Notes under the pieces: model-generated
Seen by the model: only the letters and a program-made list of their open reading frames with translations
Database searches by the model: none
Told to the model about the DNA's origin: nothing
IMG/VR virus record: IMGVR_UViG_3300005098_000017
Coordinates: 1 to 64,000 of that record
Direction: 5' to 3' (one strand)
Length of the DNA: 64,000 nt
Origin: a virus
Translations under genes and position numbers: made by a program
Shown here: positions 10,358 to 59,756 of the stretch, piece after piece
Layout: every line of letters starts with the position of its first letter
Position numbering within the stretch: the first letter of the stretch is position 1

Positions 10358-10730
10358 TCTCACCTCCTTTTGGTATTTCCAATCTCTCTAATATATAATG
10401 ATGTACATAATACTTGTCAAGGATATTTTTTATATTTATAGATACAGAATTTTTGTTAGATTTATTAAGCGCCCGCTTCAATATAAAAATATACATGTCC
10501 TCGTTAAAAAATATAATCAACAATGGAATTAAGCCCCGCACAACGGCATTATTCCATAGTTTGTCAAGGAGAGACTTCGTTACCCGAAAGCGCGGCTTCC
10601 CCGTACTCTTGACCTCGATAGCATACTCATCACTAATAACATCCACATCACCATGCGTAGAACCACTAGCTTTTGTAAATCTTCCTTTACATAAGGACCT
10701 AACTATTTCCTCGGCTTTTTTCCAGTTCAT
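10341..10730 (-). CDS. PD-(D/E)XK nuclease, possible resolvase
   Basis: 129 residues. The core HGDVDVI...YAIEVKST gives the Asp and Glu-Val-Lys of the PD-(D/E)XK active site, preceded by a helix with Glu7/Glu8. The size and motif order fit Hjc-type resolvases or small phage endonucleases. No strong ribosome site is seen before the ATG at 10730, and a stop lies 24 nt upstream in frame. The 3' end overlaps the next gene by 17 nt. Confidence 0.65.
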   Translation of the reverse strand: MNWKKAEEIVRSLCKGRFTKASGSTHGDVDVISDEYAIEVKSTGKPRFRVTKSLLDKLWNNAVVRGLIPLLIIFFNEDMYIFILKRALNKSNKNSVSINIKNILDKYYVHHYILERLEIPKGGENVQTS

Positions 10731-50327: not shown

Positions 50328-50504
50328 TCACGAGCCAACAAGCCGGCCAAACCCTCCGGCACTCTTGCGGCACCGCTCCTCGCAGGCCGCACACAGGGGA
50401 GGAGAGGCTTGGGGAGGCCTCTTAGACCCTCTATGAGGGAGCTCCAGCGCCACGTCAAGGCGGGCCTCCAGTGCTGGAGTAGCCCCCCGGTGCGGGGGCT
50501 TCAT
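50328..50504 (-). CDS. Possible 58-residue ORF overlapping RNA element E4
   Basis: AAAGGAGG lies 9 nt before the ATG, giving a 58-codon frame (MKPPHRGATP start, LCAACEERC near the end), and a GTCAAT box follows its stop like a real gene. But the frame is mostly element E4 and GC-rich fold-backs, and the other E copies are not open in the same frame. Coding is uncertain. Confidence 0.35.
   Translation of the reverse strand: MKPPHRGATPALEARLDVALELPHRGSKRPPQASPPLCAACEERCRKSAGGFGRLVGS
50413..50479 (-). ncRNA. HDV-topology RNA element E4
   Basis: On the - strand: P1 CTCCAGC, P2 GGAGGCC, P3 loop block CGCCTTGACGTGG, P1' GCTGGAG, CT, P4 CCCTC-ATA-GAGGG, TCTAAGA, P2' GGCCTCC. Preceded by an AGCCCCCG/CGGGGGGCT hairpin and GCTA. 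Lies between the polymerase-like gene and 49856-50221. Confidence 0.7.
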
Positions 50505-50577
50505 TTTTTTCACCTCCTTTCTAGCGGGATGAACTAGCCCGGCCATCTAGCCCATCCCGCGGTTTAAGGTTTAACCT

Positions 50578-52980
50578 TTAATCAAGTTTCCAGAAGTTGA
50601 GCCAGAATTCGCGATCGGCAGTAGCAAGAGGATGAAGACCAACAGGGGTTTTGATTCCAAGAATCCGCGCGAGCTGCCAGTTGCGCTTCTTACCAGTATG
50701 CAGTTCTACAAGAAAGCGTACATGTGCTTCAAGATCAGATTCAGTACCGGCAACAATAGCCAAGAAATCGCTCTCAGCGACAGTAAGAGATTTCCAAGTG
50801 GTAAGAATCGCCTGAGGTTCAAATCTAGCAAGAAGCCTGCGGAAACGCCTGTTTAGCCTCCGGAAGTTCCTAGTAAGAAGTACACGAAGTTCAGATACTT
50901 TACTCGCAAGGAAGCGCCGACGCCTGTCGAGCTCTCTGCGCCGCCTGCCAAGGGTAGCCAGAGCATCAGAAAGGTGATCAAGCCTAGGTAGCAGCCACTT
51001 TTCCATTTTTCGCCTCAGAACTTCGTTTCTGATCCCAGATGCTAGGAACCTGACTTTAGTTTCAGGTCTCGCATTAGCGAAGAGTCTACGGCTCCGATTA
51101 ACTACCGTATCAATCGCCGTTACTTTCTCTGCAAGAGCATTCACTTCATTCTCTATCTTCCGTATTCGAGAGAGCGTCCGTCCGAACATGCGCCTCCTTA
51201 TGCGATCCCACTTGAGGAACAATGCCTTAACTTCTGGATCAATGGTGCCATCAGGAATAAGATCCTTAAGAGACCTAACCTCTGGCTCAGCAAACTCAAC
51301 TTCAGGAATAAATTCAGCAAGAGGACCTGTTGGAGTTATTGCTACTGGATCCGCCTTCGCAGTCCTATTAGCGATCATTTGAGTAACAGTATCAAGCCTG
51401 GCAGTCGTACTCGCGAGTAGATGCAGTCCCGCTTCTACCTCATGACGAAGCTCCGGTTCTTTACCATTAGCAAGATTCACTGCAGCTTGGAGTAGCGCTC
51501 CAGTTCTCGCAACAAGATCCATATTAAGTTCAGTATCAGAAAGAAGCATTCGGGTAAAACCAGCATCAGCTCTCGCAATCATTTCCTTACCCAGCTCAAT
51601 ATTTTCCACTTCGGTACTAGGATCCATTCTCCACTCTCCGAAAGATATCTCCTTTATCCGGCTTCGTACGCTATCGAAGAATTCCTTAGCAACGAGAGGT
51701 TCCTTGAAGACCTTGGATGCCGCGGCGAGAGCCACTTTGTCGCCATCGGCATCCCATCCGCTAGGCATATCTGCAGGGTGTACCAGAATCGCATGCGCAC
51801 GATGGTCAACAATAATAGGAAGGATAAGAGTATCACCAGGCAAGATGGGCGACTTCTGTATGAGTAGGAGTTCTCCATCTTTCAGACCAAGCATCCGTGC
51901 AATCACAGGAGGAATAACAGCAGTGCCGGGATGTGCATTCTGAAATCCCAGATAGAAGCCCGGGCCTAGTCTCAACTTCCGAAGTGCAATCTTTAAGTGG
52001 TCCAGAAGCACTCTCCGCAGGAAGCCTGCCTCCTTTATGAGGCCGAATTTCCGCAGAATATCAGCAGTCAGAGTCAGCACTGCACTAGGTTCATTGATCG
52101 GATCAGCGTTTTTAACAAGGATATCAGCCGCTACCTCAGGATCAGAAAAACCATTAATAGCTTCAGCAATCTGCTCCTGAATCCGTTCAACAAACTCAGG
52201 CGCTGGATTAACATTCCATCCGAGTTTCCTTGGTAGAAGGAACCAGCGCGGCAGAGCTTGGCTGAGACTGATGCCGCCCGCGAATACGGCACCAACCTCA
52301 TGCAGCATGATGGTTCGCCCGAGTTCGAGTACGAAGCGCCGCCTCTTGATGAGTTTTGCGGTGTCAGCATCAGCAACGATATCAGTCCCTGTTTCCAGCT
52401 CCGTGAGGACCTCATCTGCAAGAGCTTCATTTCCAAGATACAACATCAGCCTCTGGAACCCAACTCTGCCGGGAAGAACTGGTACCGCTATCCCTTTCAG
52501 ACCAATAGCAGTCACTTTAAATCCATTCTTCACAAGAGCACGGGTAACCTTAGAAACCTCAGCCTCTGTAGGAGCATATGCTGCTGCCACAAGTTTTGTA
52601 AACCGTTCGCTAACGAAGAAGATCCCATCCACATTCATTTTCATATTGAGCTTGAGACCACGGATGCGAAGATCCATACCAGCCACACGTTCCGGCTTGA
52701 AATCCCAGCCTTTATTCGGAATTTCCGGCGTTGTCATCATCTGGATGCGCTTTCCAGGAAGAGATCTCAGATCAAATTCAGGATCACCGAGAATATTCGC
52801 AATCACTCTATTAACAGTCTCTATAGCAGAAGTAGGAACCACCTTGAAGATCCTACAATCTGGAATCATAGTAGGCTTCATTGGAAGATCAGAGTTCAGA
52901 TCAGGATCAAATGCGAAGAAGACACTAGCACCAGCTTCAGTAAATAACGCTTGCAGAGGAGACCTCGGTATTCTTTCCAT
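50578..52980 (-). CDS. RNA polymerase-like protein with DxDGD metal motif
   Basis: 800 residues; AAAGGAGG is 7 nt before the ATG at 52980 (an ATG at 52983 is also possible). Residues ~365-420 read GTAVIPPVIARMLGL, LIQKSPILPGD, LVHPADMPSGWDADGDKVALAA. This matches the double-psi beta-barrel of RNA polymerase beta' (RxPxLH, then NADFDGDxMAVH), with Asp410, 412 and 414 as metal ligands. GLKGIAVPVL (160-169) may be the partner Lys barrel (GNKGxxS in beta); this is weaker. A ~230-residue Arg/Lys-rich coiled-coil region ends the protein. Length and single chain recall YonO-like phage polymerases. Codons are more GC-rich than in neighbours. Confidence 0.65.
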   Translation of the reverse strand: MERIPRSPLQALFTEAGASVFFAFDPDLNSDLPMKPTMIPDCRIFKVVPTSAIETVNRVIANILGDPEFDLRSLPGKRIQMMTTPEIPNKGWDFKPERVAGMDLRIRGLKLNMKMNVDGIFFVSERFTKLVAAAYAPTEAEVSKVTRALVKNGFKVTAIGLKGIAVPVLPGRVGFQRLMLYLGNEALADEVLTELETGTDIVADADTAKLIKRRRFVLELGRTIMLHEVGAVFAGGISLSQALPRWFLLPRKLGWNVNPAPEFVERIQEQIAEAINGFSDPEVAADILVKNADPINEPSAVLTLTADILRKFGLIKEAGFLRRVLLDHLKIALRKLRLGPGFYLGFQNAHPGTAVIPPVIARMLGLKDGELLLIQKSPILPGDTLILPIIVDHRAHAILVHPADMPSGWDADGDKVALAAASKVFKEPLVAKEFFDSVRSRIKEISFGEWRMDPSTEVENIELGKEMIARADAGFTRMLLSDTELNMDLVARTGALLQAAVNLANGKEPELRHEVEAGLHLLASTTARLDTVTQMIANRTAKADPVAITPTGPLAEFIPEVEFAEPEVRSLKDLIPDGTIDPEVKALFLKWDRIRRRMFGRTLSRIRKIENEVNALAEKVTAIDTVVNRSRRLFANARPETKVRFLASGIRNEVLRRKMEKWLLPRLDHLSDALATLGRRRRELDRRRRFLASKVSELRVLLTRNFRRLNRRFRRLLARFEPQAILTTWKSLTVAESDFLAIVAGTESDLEAHVRFLVELHTGKKRNWQLARILGIKTPVGLHPLATADREFWLNFWKLD

Positions 52981-52997
52981 CATATCACCTCCTTTCC

Positions 52998-53124
52998 GCC
53001 GCGGATTTCGTTGCCCTCGGTGCGGCACTCCGAGGGTCGCCGGGCTTCGAGCGTCATTGGTGCCAAGGCTGGCCATAGAATGAAGCCCGGAAATTCTATG
53101 GCCATGGCCGGGCGCCTTGACACC
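52998..53124 (-). promoter_or_regulatory. Double pseudoknot leader PK5 of the polymerase-like gene
   Basis: PK5a (53040-53124): GGCCATAGAAT/ATTCTATGGCC interleaved with CCGGGCTTC/GAAGCCCGG, and an outer GGTGTCAAGGC/GCCTTGGCACC arm. PK5b (52998-53036): CCCTCGG/CCGAGGG interleaved with GCCGC/GCGGC, third loop CAACGAAATCC. It ends 18 nt before the start codon. Confidence 0.6.
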
Positions 53125-53155
53125 TCTGCTCTTTCGCGCATTTTATTTAACCTTA

Positions 53156-53596
53156 TTATCGATTAAATTCTCCATCCAATACAGCAAGCAGTAATCTTTG
53201 GAGTCTTCTTGGATCGGGTAAACCATATGCAATTCCATAGATTGGGGACCATGAATCCACATTCACCCTAACTGTTGTTCCCAAAATTTTGAATTCGAAA
53301 GCATAATCATCGATAGTATAGCTACCCTCCATTACCGATTGGAAAATGAGTGCGTCTACTAGATCCTCACAAGCCCACTCCGGATGTTGCTCAAGAATAA
53401 CTCTCTGGATCTCTAAAGTATCACACCAACCCACAATAACTCTACGTTCATCATCCATAACGTACCCCGACCGCAGATGCAAATTGTACCATTTCTCACC
53501 CACCTTGGCAGTTACCCAAGGCGGTGAGAAGTAGTAGTCGCCGACTTTAACTTTGTCGGCGATCCAGTCACCGATTACGTCCCACAACCATGACAT
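53156..53596 (-). CDS. Hypothetical protein
   Basis: 146 residues after AAAGGAGG. Trp-rich start, beta-rich middle, helical C-terminus (RRLQRLLLAVLDGEF). No family recognised. Directly preceded by RNA element E5. Confidence 0.6.
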   Translation of the reverse strand: MSWLWDVIGDWIADKVKVGDYYFSPPWVTAKVGEKWYNLHLRSGYVMDDERRVIVGWCDTLEIQRVILEQHPEWACEDLVDALIFQSVMEGSYTIDDYAFEFKILGTTVRVNVDSWSPIYGIAYGLPDPRRLQRLLLAVLDGEFNR

Positions 53597-53627
53597 TTTA
53601 CACCTCCTTTAGTTTGACTTTCTTCTC

Positions 53628-53699
53628 GAGGGACTCTTAGATCCCGCATAAGCGGGAAGCCCCGGCGCCACGACAAGGCGGTCCCTCAAAAAGCCGGGG
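53628..53699 (-). ncRNA. HDV-topology RNA element E5
   Basis: P1 CCCCGGC, J TTTTT, P2 GAGGGAC, CGCCTTGTCGTGG, P1' GCCGGGG, CT, P4 TCCCGC-TTAT-GCGGGA, TCTAAGA, P2' GTCCCTC. P1 begins on the base right after the TAA stop of 53700-54170. The A-to-T change in the P3 loop is the only deviation in that block. Confidence 0.7.
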
Positions 53700-54170
53700 T
53701 TAACTCAATTTGACATCATTATTATCCTTCTCTTTCTTTATCCACTCTATCAATTCATCCACTAGGCGCTCCACATTATAATCATCAATAATAAGAAGCG
53801 CCCTCCTGACCTTGTAGCCGAGCACCTCATGCGCTTTTAGCACATGCCTCGGCATCCAAGGCCAGGTCTCATTGTATCCCCCATTATATTTGATTTGGAG
53901 AAGGATTACCTCCTTCTTATGGGGGATACCAATGCTGACGTCGATTTTAAATACGACGTCAGCTTTACTCCCGACAGGATAGTCTATTAATTTCCATCCC
54001 GCCGGAAGCTTGGAGGATAGTTCTTCAATGAATCTATCCTCCGCTTCGAAGCCAGCTCTATGCGCCTCATGTGCGATAGAGCTAACCTCGAAATCCGGGC
54101 GGATTATTTCATGACATTCCGCCCAGAATTTTCGCGCTATAGTGCGGGCCTTCTCCATTTCATTTCTCAT
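53700..54170 (-). CDS. PD-(D/E)XK-like nuclease, possibly inactive
   Basis: 156 residues after TGGAGGAG. AGFEAEDRFIEEL, then GSKADVVFKIDV and ILLQIKYNG follow the PD-(D/E)XK core, but the Glu of ExK is Gln (QIK). An alternative carboxylate may substitute. Assignment is by pattern. Confidence 0.5.
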   Translation of the reverse strand: MRNEMEKARTIARKFWAECHEIIRPDFEVSSIAHEAHRAGFEAEDRFIEELSSKLPAGWKLIDYPVGSKADVVFKIDVSIGIPHKKEVILLQIKYNGGYNETWPWMPRHVLKAHEVLGYKVRRALLIIDDYNVERLVDELIEWIKKEKDNNDVKLS

Positions 54171-54237
54171 TTATTACTCCTCCATATGCATTCCGCCAAG
54201 GAAGTGACAAGTCCCCAAGGTCTTCTACCGTTGTCAT
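54160..54237 (-). CDS. Possible 25-residue coupled ORF
   Basis: ATG overlaps the stop of 54234-55070 (ATGA) and follows GGGAGGTG; its 3' end overlaps the start of 53700-54170. It may serve to couple translation. Confidence 0.45.
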   Translation of the reverse strand: MTTVEDLGDLSLPWRNAYGGVINEK

Positions 54238-55070
54238 AATATCACCTCCCTTACTTTGATAACAGGGTTAACCCAATCAACAAAATGATAGATTTTGTTT
54301 ATACGAGGGGGACAACCTTGGTCTCCCTTTATTTCGATATCATTATGATCAGCTATCCATACCTCATGAAACTGATTAAACAGTTTCTTAAATATAGGCG
54401 CCGCCTCCATCTCATATCCCGGCTTAACCTCTATATTATTCGCCAGAAGAACATTATCGTTACCGGTCACCGCTACCATAAGCGCACGAATCTTATTGTT
54501 TTCCACATCTTCCATCACATATGTGATGGCATCACCAAACGTCATGGTGTGCCATCCGTCATGGAAGATGTGTGCGCAGCAATGTACATGGAACCCTAAG
54601 AACGGAAATCTTGGATCTTTACGCGATAGTGGACGAAGTAACCAGCGTTCCGTTCTAATTACAGGTAAATCTGTTATGTCCACAGCCGGTAATGAGATCC
54701 ATTCCCGAAATAATTTCTGAATTTTACCACTATGAAGGTCTATTTTTGTATACCTTGGATGCCACCGCCAAAATTCTTTCCAAAATTCGCGGTGGCCATA
54801 TCGTCTAGCCCAAGATGTCACCAAGTTTTCCCTCGGTGACATCCTCTCATCGAGGCCTGTTTCATTAGCGGCCTCAATGAGATGGGGGCTTAGTGGCCCC
54901 CTAAACTTAAAGATATACCCTGCAAATTCTGGCCGCAAAAGTGGCGTTAGAAGCCACAAGGCATCGCGGCCGATTTTATTTAAATTATCACGGCCGTATG
55001 CCCTTATGGCTATCTCGATAAGAGGTTGCAATGTCTTATTCTTCATCAAGCCTTCCAAATATGCATTCAT
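54234..55070 (-). CDS. Hypothetical protein with His/Cys cluster
   Basis: 278 residues after AAAGGAGG. Helical, Arg-rich first half; a HVHCCAHIFHDGWH cluster near residue 165 may bind metal; beta-rich C-terminus. Not similar to any family I recognise. Long structured leader (PK6, hairpin, E1) upstream. Confidence 0.6.
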   Translation of the reverse strand: MNAYLEGLMKNKTLQPLIEIAIRAYGRDNLNKIGRDALWLLTPLLRPEFAGYIFKFRGPLSPHLIEAANETGLDERMSPRENLVTSWARRYGHREFWKEFWRWHPRYTKIDLHSGKIQKLFREWISLPAVDITDLPVIRTERWLLRPLSRKDPRFPFLGFHVHCCAHIFHDGWHTMTFGDAITYVMEDVENNKIRALMVAVTGNDNVLLANNIEVKPGYEMEAAPIFKKLFNQFHEVWIADHNDIEIKGDQGCPPRINKIYHFVDWVNPVIKVREVIL

Positions 55071-55108
55071 TTTTACCTCCTTTATTTTTATACATATTCT
55101 CCATTTTT

Positions 55109-55166
55109 GCCCGCATTAGTTTACCAAGGGCACCATCTGACCTGCGGGCATTGATCAGATGGCGCC
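55109..55166 (-). promoter_or_regulatory. H-type pseudoknot PK6
   Basis: S1 GGCGCCATCTGA/TCAGATGGTGCC (12 bp, one wobble) and S2 GCCCGCA/TGCGGGC (7 bp), interleaved; third loop CTTGGTAAACTAA. 39 nt before the 55070 start. Confidence 0.7.
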
Positions 55167-55178
55167 TATATACAAAAT

Positions 55179-55213
55179 GGGCACCGTATAGTCATGGTAA
55201 CAATACGGTGCCC
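55179..55213 (-). other. Perfect 11-bp hairpin
   Basis: GGGCACCGTAT/ATACGGTGCCC with a 13-nt loop, between E1 and PK6. Not followed by a T-run, so not an obvious terminator. Confidence 0.6.
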
Positions 55214-55234
55214 TCACAACATCCCCTTTTATTA

Positions 55235-55310
55235 GGGTGCTCTTAGACCCTTAGGGATTGGACCTAAGGGAGCCCCTCCACCACGTCAAGGTGGCACCCT
55301 ATCGGAGGGG
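55235..55310 (-). ncRNA. HDV-topology RNA element E1
   Basis: P1 CCCCTCC, P2 GGGTGC, CACCTTGACGTGG, P1' GGAGGGG, CT, P4 CCCTTAGG/CCTAAGGG, TCTAAGA, P2' GCACCC. Preceded by an AGCGGGGT/ACCCCGCT hairpin (55312-55332) ending GCT-A. Between 55364-55570 and 54234-55070. Confidence 0.75.
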
Positions 55311-55363
55311 TAGCGGGGTCTTGGACCCCGCTCTTGACTCTTGAGGCCGGCCGGTTTATTTTT

Positions 55364-55570
55364 TTAATATTTCCTGTAATCATGATACAAATGGATTATA
55401 CTTTCATACCTGCCAAATATTTTGACAGGCATAGCATGCAAATCTGTTACTTTCATGCCTTCATAGAAGAATTGACCTTCTCCAAAATACTTATGGAGAA
55501 GGTCTGTTTCCTTTATAGGATGATCTAGCAAGAACAAAACTCCTTCTTTTATAAACCCAATCACCGGCAT
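55364..55570 (-). CDS. Small hypothetical protein
   Basis: 68 residues from MPVIGFIKEG, 6 nt after GAGGAGG. Beta start, then EGQFFYEGMKVTDLHAMPVKIFGRY; no family recognised. Flanked by E1 downstream and PK7 upstream. Confidence 0.6.
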   Translation of the reverse strand: MPVIGFIKEGVLFLLDHPIKETDLLHKYFGEGQFFYEGMKVTDLHAMPVKIFGRYESIIHLYHDYRKY

Positions 55571-55583
55571 GATAAACCTCCTC

Positions 55584-55642
55584 GCCGCACCTTGGTTCAA
55601 CTCCCAGTATGCATACGGTGCGGCACTTATATGCATACTGGG
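55584..55642 (-). promoter_or_regulatory. H-type pseudoknot PK7
   Basis: S1 CCCAGTATGCATA/TATGCATACTGGG (13 bp) and S2 GCCGCACC/GGTGCGGC (8 bp), interleaved; third loop AGTTGAACCAA. It abuts GAGGAGG, 14 nt before the start. Confidence 0.75.
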
Positions 55643-55659
55643 ATACCGGCCGGCCTTAT

Positions 55660-55734
55660 GGACACTCTTAGACCCTTAGGGATTGGACCTAAGGGAGCCC
55701 TCCAGCCACGTCAAGGCGGTGTCCTTCTGGAGGG
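55660..55734 (-). ncRNA. HDV-topology RNA element E2
   Basis: P1 CCCTCCAG, P2 GGACAC, CGCCTTGACGTGG, P1' CTGGAGGG, CT, P4 CCCTTAGG/CCTAAGGG, TCTAAGA, P2' GTGTCC. Preceded by an AGCAAGG/CCTTGCT hairpin ending GCT-A. Confidence 0.75.
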
Positions 55735-55786
55735 TAGCAAGGCCATCATGTGAGACCTTGCTTTGGCTTGGGCGGCAAATCCTTCC

Positions 55787-55993
55787 TTAAAATTCGTAAT
55801 ACCAGACTTTTTTTCCAATTCTTTCAATATATTTGGCAAGTTTCCTTACTTTTCTAGTAGGTCTACCACCTGTGTAAGCCATACCTGATACCAAAGGCCT
55901 AAGAAGACTGACTCTGCCATCTGGAAATAATTCCCCAACAAACCTGATCAAATCCTTGCCTATCCAGAGATCAACTATAACTGTCCTTGTCAT
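55787..55993 (-). CDS. Small basic hypothetical protein
   Basis: 68 residues after AAAGGAGG. Beta start (TRTVIVDLWIG), basic C-terminus (RPTRKVRKLAKYIERIGKK). Leader contains PK8. Confidence 0.6.
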   Translation of the reverse strand: MTRTVIVDLWIGKDLIRFVGELFPDGRVSLLRPLVSGMAYTGGRPTRKVRKLAKYIERIGKKVWYYEF

Positions 55994-56007
55994 TTTTTCC
56001 TCCTTTC

Positions 56008-56066
56008 GCCGCGGTCAGTTTTAACCACCAGTGGGCCCACACCGCGGCATTTATGGTACCCACTGG
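56008..56066 (-). promoter_or_regulatory. H-type pseudoknot PK8
   Basis: S1 CCAGTGGG/CCCACTGG and S2 GCCGCGGT/ACCGCGGC, interleaved; third loop about TGGTTAAAACTG. 15 nt before the start codon. Confidence 0.7.
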
Positions 56067-56084
56067 CTTGCCGCCCAAGCCATC

Positions 56085-56154
56085 GGACGCTCTTAGACCT
56101 AGCCACAAGGCTAGGAGCCCCTCCACCACGTCAAGGTGGCGTCCGTCGGAGGGG
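56085..56154 (-). ncRNA. HDV-topology RNA element E3
   Basis: P1 CCCCTCC, P2 GGACGC, CACCTTGACGTGG, P1' GGAGGGG, CT, P4 CCTAGCC-TTGT-GGCTAGG, TCTAAGA, P2' GCGTCC. Preceded by a GCAAGGCC/GGTCTTGC hairpin ending GCT-A. Confidence 0.75.
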
Positions 56155-56207
56155 TAGCAAGACCCCAAGGGGCCTTGCCTCGTCTACGGGGGCGCCAATA
56201 GACCGTA

Positions 56208-58136: not shown

Positions 58137-58528
58137 TTTATCTCCTTATTATTTTTATCGTTGAAATATGTTTTTCTAAATTCCTCTAGGATAGGTTCAT
58201 CACCTGTACCATAGAGGACGGCGTGCATCCATTCAGTTACCTGATCTGCTGTATGGTGTGGAAATACATCCTTCATGCATCCGAAGTATTTTTGCCAGTT
58301 GGTTGGTTTAGGTTTTTTATGTTCTTTTATAGTCCATTTTTTGGTAGCTGTGGCGGATCCGTAGGTTGTGAGGATGAGGCCTATAATTATTATTATTATG
58401 GTGTATGTAGTGGGATTATTGGTGTAGTGGTGGAGGAGGAAGCCGGCCGCAGTGGTAAGTAGGCCCCAGAATCGTTTGCTCCTCCAGAAGGGTTTGGTGT
58501 TATTATTGTTATTATCGTGTGTGTTCAT
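58133..58528 (-). CDS. Holin-like two-helix membrane protein
   Basis: 131 residues after AAAGGAG. An Asn-rich start, then KPFWRSKRFWGLLTTAAGFLL and an Ile-rich second helix (to ~65), then a soluble domain. The KPFWxSKxFWG lead is typical of small phage membrane proteins next to lysis genes, but no lysin is adjacent. Its ATG lies inside the last codons of tnpB. Confidence 0.55.
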   Translation of the reverse strand: MNTHDNNNNNTKPFWRSKRFWGLLTTAAGFLLHHYTNNPTTYTIIIIIIGLILTTYGSATATKKWTIKEHKKPKPTNWQKYFGCMKDVFPHHTADQVTEWMHAVLYGTGDEPILEEFRKTYFNDKNNKEIK

Positions 58529-59756
58529 TTTGGGTCTCCTTTATGTTATGAAGCCCGCGCTTCAGTATATTAATACTTGCATTATAATCTCTATCGAGGG
58601 TTGCACCACAGAACGGGCATTTATGTATACGATCGTGGAGTGCCTTAGGTACCTTATGTCCACATGAGGAGCATGTCTGCGTAGTATATGCTGGGTTAAC
58701 CTTGATGACTTGTGAGCCGTGAAGCCGCGCCTTGTAGGATGTTAGATTGATAAGTGTGTTCCATCCTGCGTCGTAGATGTATTTAGAGAGGTGAAGCCGG
58801 CGGCGCTTGCTTACAAGATCATGTATTTTTATATCCTCGAATATAATAACATCATAGTTAGTAGCGAGCTGATGTGAGATATGATGGAGGAAGCCGCGCC
58901 GCATGTTAGCTAATCGTTCATGAAGTCTGGCTAGTTTACGCCTCTGTTTCATATAATTAGCACTCCCTCGCTGCTTGCGCGAGAGCTGTTTTTGTACACG
59001 CTTTATACGTTTTTCGAGTTTGGAGATGAAGCGCGGGTTAGATACAATATTACCATCACTTGATACGATGAGATTCGTAAGCCCGAGATCTATACCGATG
59101 ACGCGCTGCTTACTATTAATATCGGTAACGATAGTAGTGTCATTATTATTGGGTACTTCAACTGTTACATATGCATACCATCTACCACTGGGATGTCTCT
59201 TTATAGTAACATTTTTGGCTTTAGTCCATTCGATAGGTCGGTGAAGGCGGATTTTTAAGCCGCCGAGTTTGGGTAAATGAATATATGCGAACTTATCATT
59301 CAGTTTCTCAAATTTAATGACAGGATACCCATCCGGATAGTTTTTATGAGTCATCCAAACTTGTGGATATGTAAGTGATAAGTATTGATCAGGGTTTTTG
59401 GGTTTAGGCGGACTTATATGTCCTTCTTTATTCCTGATGGCTACAAAGAAACGCTTATATGCCCAGTCAATCTTATCAATTATAGCCTTTAAGACACCTG
59501 AATAAACGAGCCTTAAGGCAGGTTCCTCTCTTTTAAATGCGGTTAGGTTACGTTGCCTCTCAAATTTTGTAGGGGTTCTATGTTCTTCATCCCATATACG
59601 TCTGTATTCATTTATTTCGTAATTATAGAACCAGCAGAGGATGGACAGCCAGTTTTCTAGTTTATATTCCTGTAGTGTTGTTGGATAGGCTCTGAATTTG
59701 TAGGTGAGGTAGGAAGCCGCCGCCTTATCAGTATTTTTTGATCCTTGTTTATTCAT
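58512..59756 (-). CDS. tnpB: TnpB-family RNA-guided nuclease (IS200/IS605 type)
   Basis: 414 residues. RuvC residues: Asp223 (GIDLGLTNL), Glu307 (IIFEDIKI), Asp388/390 (DRDYNASINIL). Zinc finger: Cys362, 365, 380, 383. All catalytic positions are intact. No TnpA and no clear element ends are visible, so it is a lone TnpB. TnpB guides derive from the 3' end of the gene and flanking DNA, so a guide RNA would overlap the 58133-58528 start region. No ribosome site is seen at the ATG. Confidence 0.9.
   Translation of the reverse strand: MNKQGSKNTDKAAASYLTYKFRAYPTTLQEYKLENWLSILCWFYNYEINEYRRIWDEEHRTPTKFERQRNLTAFKREEPALRLVYSGVLKAIIDKIDWAYKRFFVAIRNKEGHISPPKPKNPDQYLSLTYPQVWMTHKNYPDGYPVIKFEKLNDKFAYIHLPKLGGLKIRLHRPIEWTKAKNVTIKRHPSGRWYAYVTVEVPNNNDTTIVTDINSKQRVIGIDLGLTNLIVSSDGNIVSNPRFISKLEKRIKRVQKQLSRKQRGSANYMKQRRKLARLHERLANMRRGFLHHISHQLATNYDVIIFEDIKIHDLVSKRRRLHLSKYIYDAGWNTLINLTSYKARLHGSQVIKVNPAYTTQTCSSCGHKVPKALHDRIHKCPFCGATLDRDYNASINILKRGLHNIKETQNEHTR

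Follow-up and report, generated by a model that had tools for sequence, protein, structure and literature searches.

A probable C1-type HDV-like ribozyme subclass proposed to form mRNA and tRNA 3′ ends in phages

The DNA under study belongs to a 147,433-base virus record of an uncultured phage, and the window, i.e., the whole stretch that was analysed, corresponds to its positions 1-64,000 (64,000 nucleotides). Five elements of about 70 nt lie there in intergenic position, all on the − strand, which carries nearly all genes of this stretch. A preliminary description had placed them at the coordinates given below and reported that they share CCTTG(A/T)CGTGG, CT and TCTAAGA; these blocks are indeed identical in all five, and the first one is found in exactly five copies in the whole record, every one corresponding to an element (E1 to E5). 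The features are as follows (positions of the window; C1 is the C at position +1 of an element, P0 a hairpin preceding it).

50413..50479, − strand: E1, predicted to be a C1-type HDV-like ribozyme, P4 included; C1 at 50479, with the cut predicted on its 5′ side, and predicted catalytic C at 50425
50481..50500, − strand: P0 hairpin of E1, ending 1 nt before E1; fold −16.2 kcal/mol, z −2.7
53628..53699, − strand: E2, predicted C1-type HDV-like ribozyme; C1 at 53699, predicted catalytic C at 53640
53700..54170, − strand: 156-aa ORF, function unknown; its stop codon is immediately adjacent to the predicted E2 cut
55235..55310, − strand: E3, predicted C1-type HDV-like ribozyme; C1 at 55310, predicted catalytic C at 55246
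55312..55332, − strand: P0 hairpin of E3, ending 1 nt before E3; −17.6 kcal/mol, z −6.0
55660..55734, − strand: E4, predicted C1-type HDV-like ribozyme; C1 at 55734, predicted catalytic C at 55671
55736..55762, − strand: P0 hairpin of E4, ending 1 nt before E4; −15.0 kcal/mol, z −4.8
56085..56154, − strand: E5, predicted C1-type HDV-like ribozyme; C1 at 56154, predicted catalytic C at 56096
56156..56179, − strand: P0 hairpin of E5, ending 1 nt before E5; −17.1 kcal/mol, z −3.1

Four of the five elements are thus preceded by a P0 hairpin (E1, E3, E4 and E5), and the one of E1 is predicted to become the new mRNA 3′ end of an ORF of about 800 aa. The exception is E2, whose C1 comes immediately after the TAA stop of the 156-aa ORF, as is also the case for its orthologue in the related 175-kb phage L043. 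Neither this ORF nor the other proteins encoded beside the elements match any Pfam or PHROG family, and no tRNA gene was found in the window. E3 and E4 have an identical P4, and L043 carries, near 10367, a single element that combines the body of E3 with the upstream hairpin of E4, as if the intervening gene had been lost by recombination. The gene of an IS605-type OrfB/TnpB-like transposase (414 aa) lies at 58512-59756 on the − strand.

Read 5′ to 3′, each element successively presents P1 (7 nt), J1/2 (2-4 nt), P2, 1 nt, P3 (RCC), L3 (UUGNCGU), P3′ (GGY), P1′ (7 nt), CU, a P4 hairpin (14-24 nt between CU and J4/2), CUAAGA (J4/2) and P2′. This is the complete layout of an HDV ribozyme, with its nested double pseudoknot, and the strand order P1-P2-P3-P1′-P4-P2′ proposed in the preliminary description is confirmed. 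P1 (7 bp) and P3 (3 bp) have the HDV lengths, and, since a 3-bp P3 here closes a 7-nt loop, the conserved CCTTGWCGTGG is simply P3 plus L3. The other expected features are U20 and G25 in L3, a P1.1 and a catalytic C as first base of J4/2. U20 and G25 are found in the UUGNCGU loop of all five window elements, where the search did not impose them; P1.1 is present as a G22-C38 pair; and a C indeed heads J4/2. In E5, for instance, L3 occupies 56134-56128, G22 is 56132 and C38 is 56117. Two expected features are lacking. The G at +1 (G1-U37) is replaced by C1 in all 78 core members listed (see below), and no ribozyme model of Rfam, HDV included, detects any element at gathering or permissive thresholds, a search that had been proposed beforehand. 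We did not treat the missing G1 as excluding the HDV family because C1 members are documented: in trypanosomatid HDV-like ribozymes (L1Tc/SIDER), +1 is a C and cleavage was mapped 5′ of C1 (PMC4035085). Hence, the two objections initially raised, i.e., that P1 starts with C rather than G and that no clear P1.1 exists, both fall, since P1.1 was found (G22-C38, covarying with U-A and A-U) and C1 cleavage is documented. We conclude that the five elements almost certainly fold like the HDV self-cutting ribozyme, in a flipped form having C for G.

We then fetched relatives by pattern scans of IMG/VR; all counts derived from them are lower bounds. As the matches listed for the first viral scan were mostly due to chance, a structural filter was needed. 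The resulting structural descriptor gave at least 105 matches in 3.64 Mb of fetched sequence; more than 100 relatives were identified, and at least 78 distinct core members remained after removal of duplicates, versus no descriptor match in 3.6 Mb of dinucleotide-shuffled control. The search anchors contain L3 and, for most of them, G37-C38-U39 (positions 37-39 were left free in the first scan), so the conservation of these positions among relatives is partly imposed. P4 is optional: some relatives carry it and others have about 5 nt instead (L4 is 5 nt in 36 of the 78 core members listed). When P4-bearing forms were sought in genome contigs, all the matches listed failed the descriptor. Only one of the 78 core members listed lies inside a same-strand ORF of at least 100 aa; the elements are therefore not coding.

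The preliminary description also stated that P1, P2 and P4 vary in sequence while staying paired, and this extends well beyond the five copies. Circularity was avoided by selecting 122 distinct relatives, among the matches listed, by anchor letters only. In this set, P1 is paired over 7/7 positions in 82 sequences (mean of 7.2 and maximum of 15 with random partner strands, 200 trials) and P2 over 5/5 positions in 64 (mean of 4.4 and maximum of 11 with randomly dealt partners). Across core members, every P1 pair except the first is found as four or five pair types. As for P4, its sequence is changed and its pairing kept in the L043 orthologues of E1 and E2. P1.1 covaries as well: scanning each combination, we found, among the matches listed, structured members with G22-C38 (69), U22-A38 (7) and A22-U38 (4), whereas none of 55 anchored sequences with a non-pairing combination was structured. 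Likewise, a dedicated 22-38 mismatch scan gave 39 distinct sequences among the matches listed, none with P1. These counts are not independent events, since the sequences are related; nonetheless, the contexts in which the three pair types are found differ. The C22-G38 swap inside the C1 frame was sought, and only two odd elements were found, L296 (10546) and L299 (4396). Both are covarying HDV-like elements with a UUCNCGU L3 and UU after P1′, and neither has a clear P1.1 in the G1 or the C1 register.

The first base of J4/2 is conserved as well. Scanning with a C at this place retrieved more than 20 fully structured matches, and scanning with A, G or U retrieved no fully structured match in that register. 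Among the P1-bearing anchored sequences listed, a full P2 in register is found in 65 of 87, and the C can serve as head of J4/2 in all 65 (8 of them also permit a non-C head through an alternative register). The resemblance of this C-N-A-A to the region of C75, already pointed out from the five copies, is thereby upheld; the catalytic role of the C itself is inferred.

Compared with known families, the elements share with canonical HDV and CPEB3 ribozymes (Rfam HDV family) the strand order, the 7-bp P1, the 3-bp P3, the 7-nt L3 with U20 and G25, and the C-N-A-A of J4/2. However, G1-U37 and C22-G38 there become C1-G37 and G22-C38 here. They resemble the L1Tc/SIDER ribozymes by C1, the flipped G-C orientation in P1 and an altered P1.1 (PMC4035085, PMC4748587). 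Indeed, L1Tc of Trypanosoma cruzi has CCACC at 16-20, TCAA at 21-24 and CGTG at 25-28 (PMC4748587), and E5, counted from C1, has exactly the same CCACC and CGTG at these positions. On the other hand, these ribozymes occupy the 5′ ends of eukaryotic retrotransposons, and their TCAA contrasts with UUGN here.

HDV ribozymes cut 5′ of P1. The genomic position of the relatives places the predicted cut at the same point: five members start 0-2 nt past a tRNA 3′ end, which puts it 5′ of C1. Two of them (Lys and Leu, both in L395) start right after the discriminator base, two (L339 Leu and L381 Asn) 1 nt past the encoded CCA, and one (L354 Ile) 2 nt past it. A further element (L388), which overlaps a long tRNA match unreported by ARAGORN, was excluded from this set. 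In the 78 core members listed, the base before C1 is A (41), U (27) or C (10), and never G. Among the matches listed, 47 of the 71 members without adjoining tRNA (66%) follow a P0 hairpin, here meaning one with a folding energy of −6 kcal/mol or lower that ends 0-4 nt before P1. Such a hairpin was seen in 3.9% of upstream windows taken at random and in 3.2% of shuffled sequences; in the members, it is usually separated from P1 by 1 nt. In one phage lineage, the element follows, at a distance of 62-124 nt, a gene with a match to the PHROG major head protein family. A conserved protein of 337-339 aa and unknown function is encoded just after this ribozyme in L121, L332, L340 and relatives. In cultured phages, neither a relative of the 339-aa form nor a convincing DNA match to the elements was found.

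Taken together, these data led us to consider it very probable that self-cleavage 5′ of C1 is what best explains the anatomy, the conserved C, the P1.1 covariation and the tRNA-end positions, even though cleavage is here inferred and not measured. This reading is supported by the P1, P2 and P1.1 covariation, the invariant C of J4/2, U20 and G25 in L3, the dispensable P4 and the starts at tRNA ends; against it stand the lack of measured cleavage, of the signature G1 and of any detection by Rfam. Activity being unmeasured, the HDV fold could have been kept and cleavage lost, leaving rigid 3′-end or nuclease-blocking structures, and very stable nested pseudoknots adjoining stop codons and hairpins would suit such a function. 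A mere block, however, needs neither the conserved first C of J4/2 nor P1.1, and its starts would not have to coincide with tRNA 3′ ends, so that we regard this possibility as improbable. It is still less probable that the elements, often 20-60 nt ahead of a start codon, are riboswitches or protein-binding leaders of the downstream gene that became HDV-like by convergence, since downstream genes vary widely and the upstream side is better fixed (a hairpin at 1 nt or a tRNA end at 0-2 nt). Finally, although a G+C-rich hairpin just past several genes recalls an intrinsic terminator in which P0 and the element would stop transcription, this is hardly tenable: the − strand has no U-tract after P0, scans for terminators and promoters gave a − strand terminator-like match at none of the elements, and the P1/P2/P1.1 covariation and invariant C would stay unexplained.

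Of the two options initially left open, a new kind of structured RNA or a divergent class of self-cleaving RNAs, the second is thus strongly supported, and the elements most likely represent a self-cleaving C1-type HDV-like ribozyme subclass, with cleavage inferred, forming phage mRNA and tRNA 3′ ends. In this proposed mechanism, the − strand transcript would fold as P1-P2-P3-P1′-P1.1-P4-P2′, with C1-G37 as cleavage-site pair and P1.1 made by G22-C38, instead of the canonical G1-U37 and C22-G38. The first C of CUAAGA would play the role of C75, and the 2′-OH of the nucleotide before C1 would attack the phosphate that links −1 to C1. This would leave the upstream product with a 2′,3′-cyclic phosphate end, 1 nt past a stable hairpin (E1, E3, E4 and E5) or, for E2, at the stop codon, while the downstream product would begin with the 5′-OH ribozyme, followed by the leader of the next gene. 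By this way, the elements would split the messages of one transcript and make hairpin-protected mRNA 3′ ends, relatives treating tRNAs alike; the benefit to the mRNA is inferred. That the elements cut multigene transcripts and leave an upstream message ending in a short hairpin rests on position only, without RNA data, and we hold it to be rather probable. In T7-like phages, RNase III processing sites divide multigene messages in the intervals between genes, and the upstream 3′ end is left with a hairpin. The intergenic cutting and the hairpin are alike, but there a host protein cuts, whereas here the RNA itself is proposed to do so.

The HDV fold, C1 cleavage in trypanosomatid retrotransposons (PMC4035085) and phage HDV-like ribozymes at tRNA ends (PMC10879173) are already known. 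The latter, the theta ribozymes, are minimal HDV-like ribozymes of gut phages located at tRNA 3′ ends, with G1 given as cleavage site; 526 non-tRNA matches without a known role, most of them intergenic and in sense orientation, were also reported (Kienbeck et al. 2024, PMC10879173). The phage-borne HDV fold, the catalytic C first in J4/2, the frequent absence of P4 and, in relatives, the starts at tRNA 3′ ends are common to both. Unlike theta ribozymes, ours have C1-G37 with G22-C38, and the window elements keep P4 (not the minimal form, many relatives being without P4) and follow mRNA hairpins. The theta requirement that the cut lie no more than 5 nt from a tRNA 3′ end is fulfilled by the five tRNA-linked relatives and, in the absence of tRNA, not in the window; maturation of tRNA 3′ ends, as by theta ribozymes, is a role that fits the former, not the latter. 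We found neither a phage C1/G22-C38 subclass nor its place behind mRNA 3′ hairpins in the literature consulted or in Rfam, the supplementary lists of the theta paper not being covered. We lean towards a widespread, unrecorded C1-type subclass that forms many phage mRNA 3′ ends (gene, protective hairpin, ribozyme, next gene), with somewhat less assurance than for the cutting of multigene transcripts. If true, phage HDV-like ribozymes would extend from tRNA to mRNA 3′ ends, the non-tRNA phage ribozymes reported without a role would have a possible one, and C1-type ends would need no host nucleases or terminators, including behind the major capsid gene in one lineage. A gap would also be indicated in Rfam and in searches demanding G1.

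Both forms can coexist. Contig G003 (42 kb) contains at least seven C1-type elements and one canonical element in the same intergenic role; the latter (L691 7352-7408; L116 near 3434) has G1-U37, a UCCCCGU L3 and C22-G38, and a hairpin precedes it. The cleavage-site pair and P1.1 are flipped jointly when canonical and C1 forms are compared, both being present in one contig, which would provide a natural experiment for the active site. Further canonical G1-U37/C22-G38 HDV-like elements lie in L405 (near 1207) and L298 (near 1857).

A second recurrent structured RNA is found near the elements of the window. H-type pseudoknots lie on the − strand just upstream of Shine-Dalgarno sites at about 56502, 56003, 55581, 50232, 49761 and 49334, and one more precedes the ORF at 55070. 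They have a stem 1 of 7-15 bp, a stem 2 of 8-9 bp, often TGCCGC, and an A-rich third loop, and end near the ribosome-binding site. Seven matches were obtained among 103 − strand Shine-Dalgarno sites, six of the seven clustered here, compared with 0.6% of positions drawn at random. The related phage L692 has conserved two of them, and several come directly after a ribozyme element.
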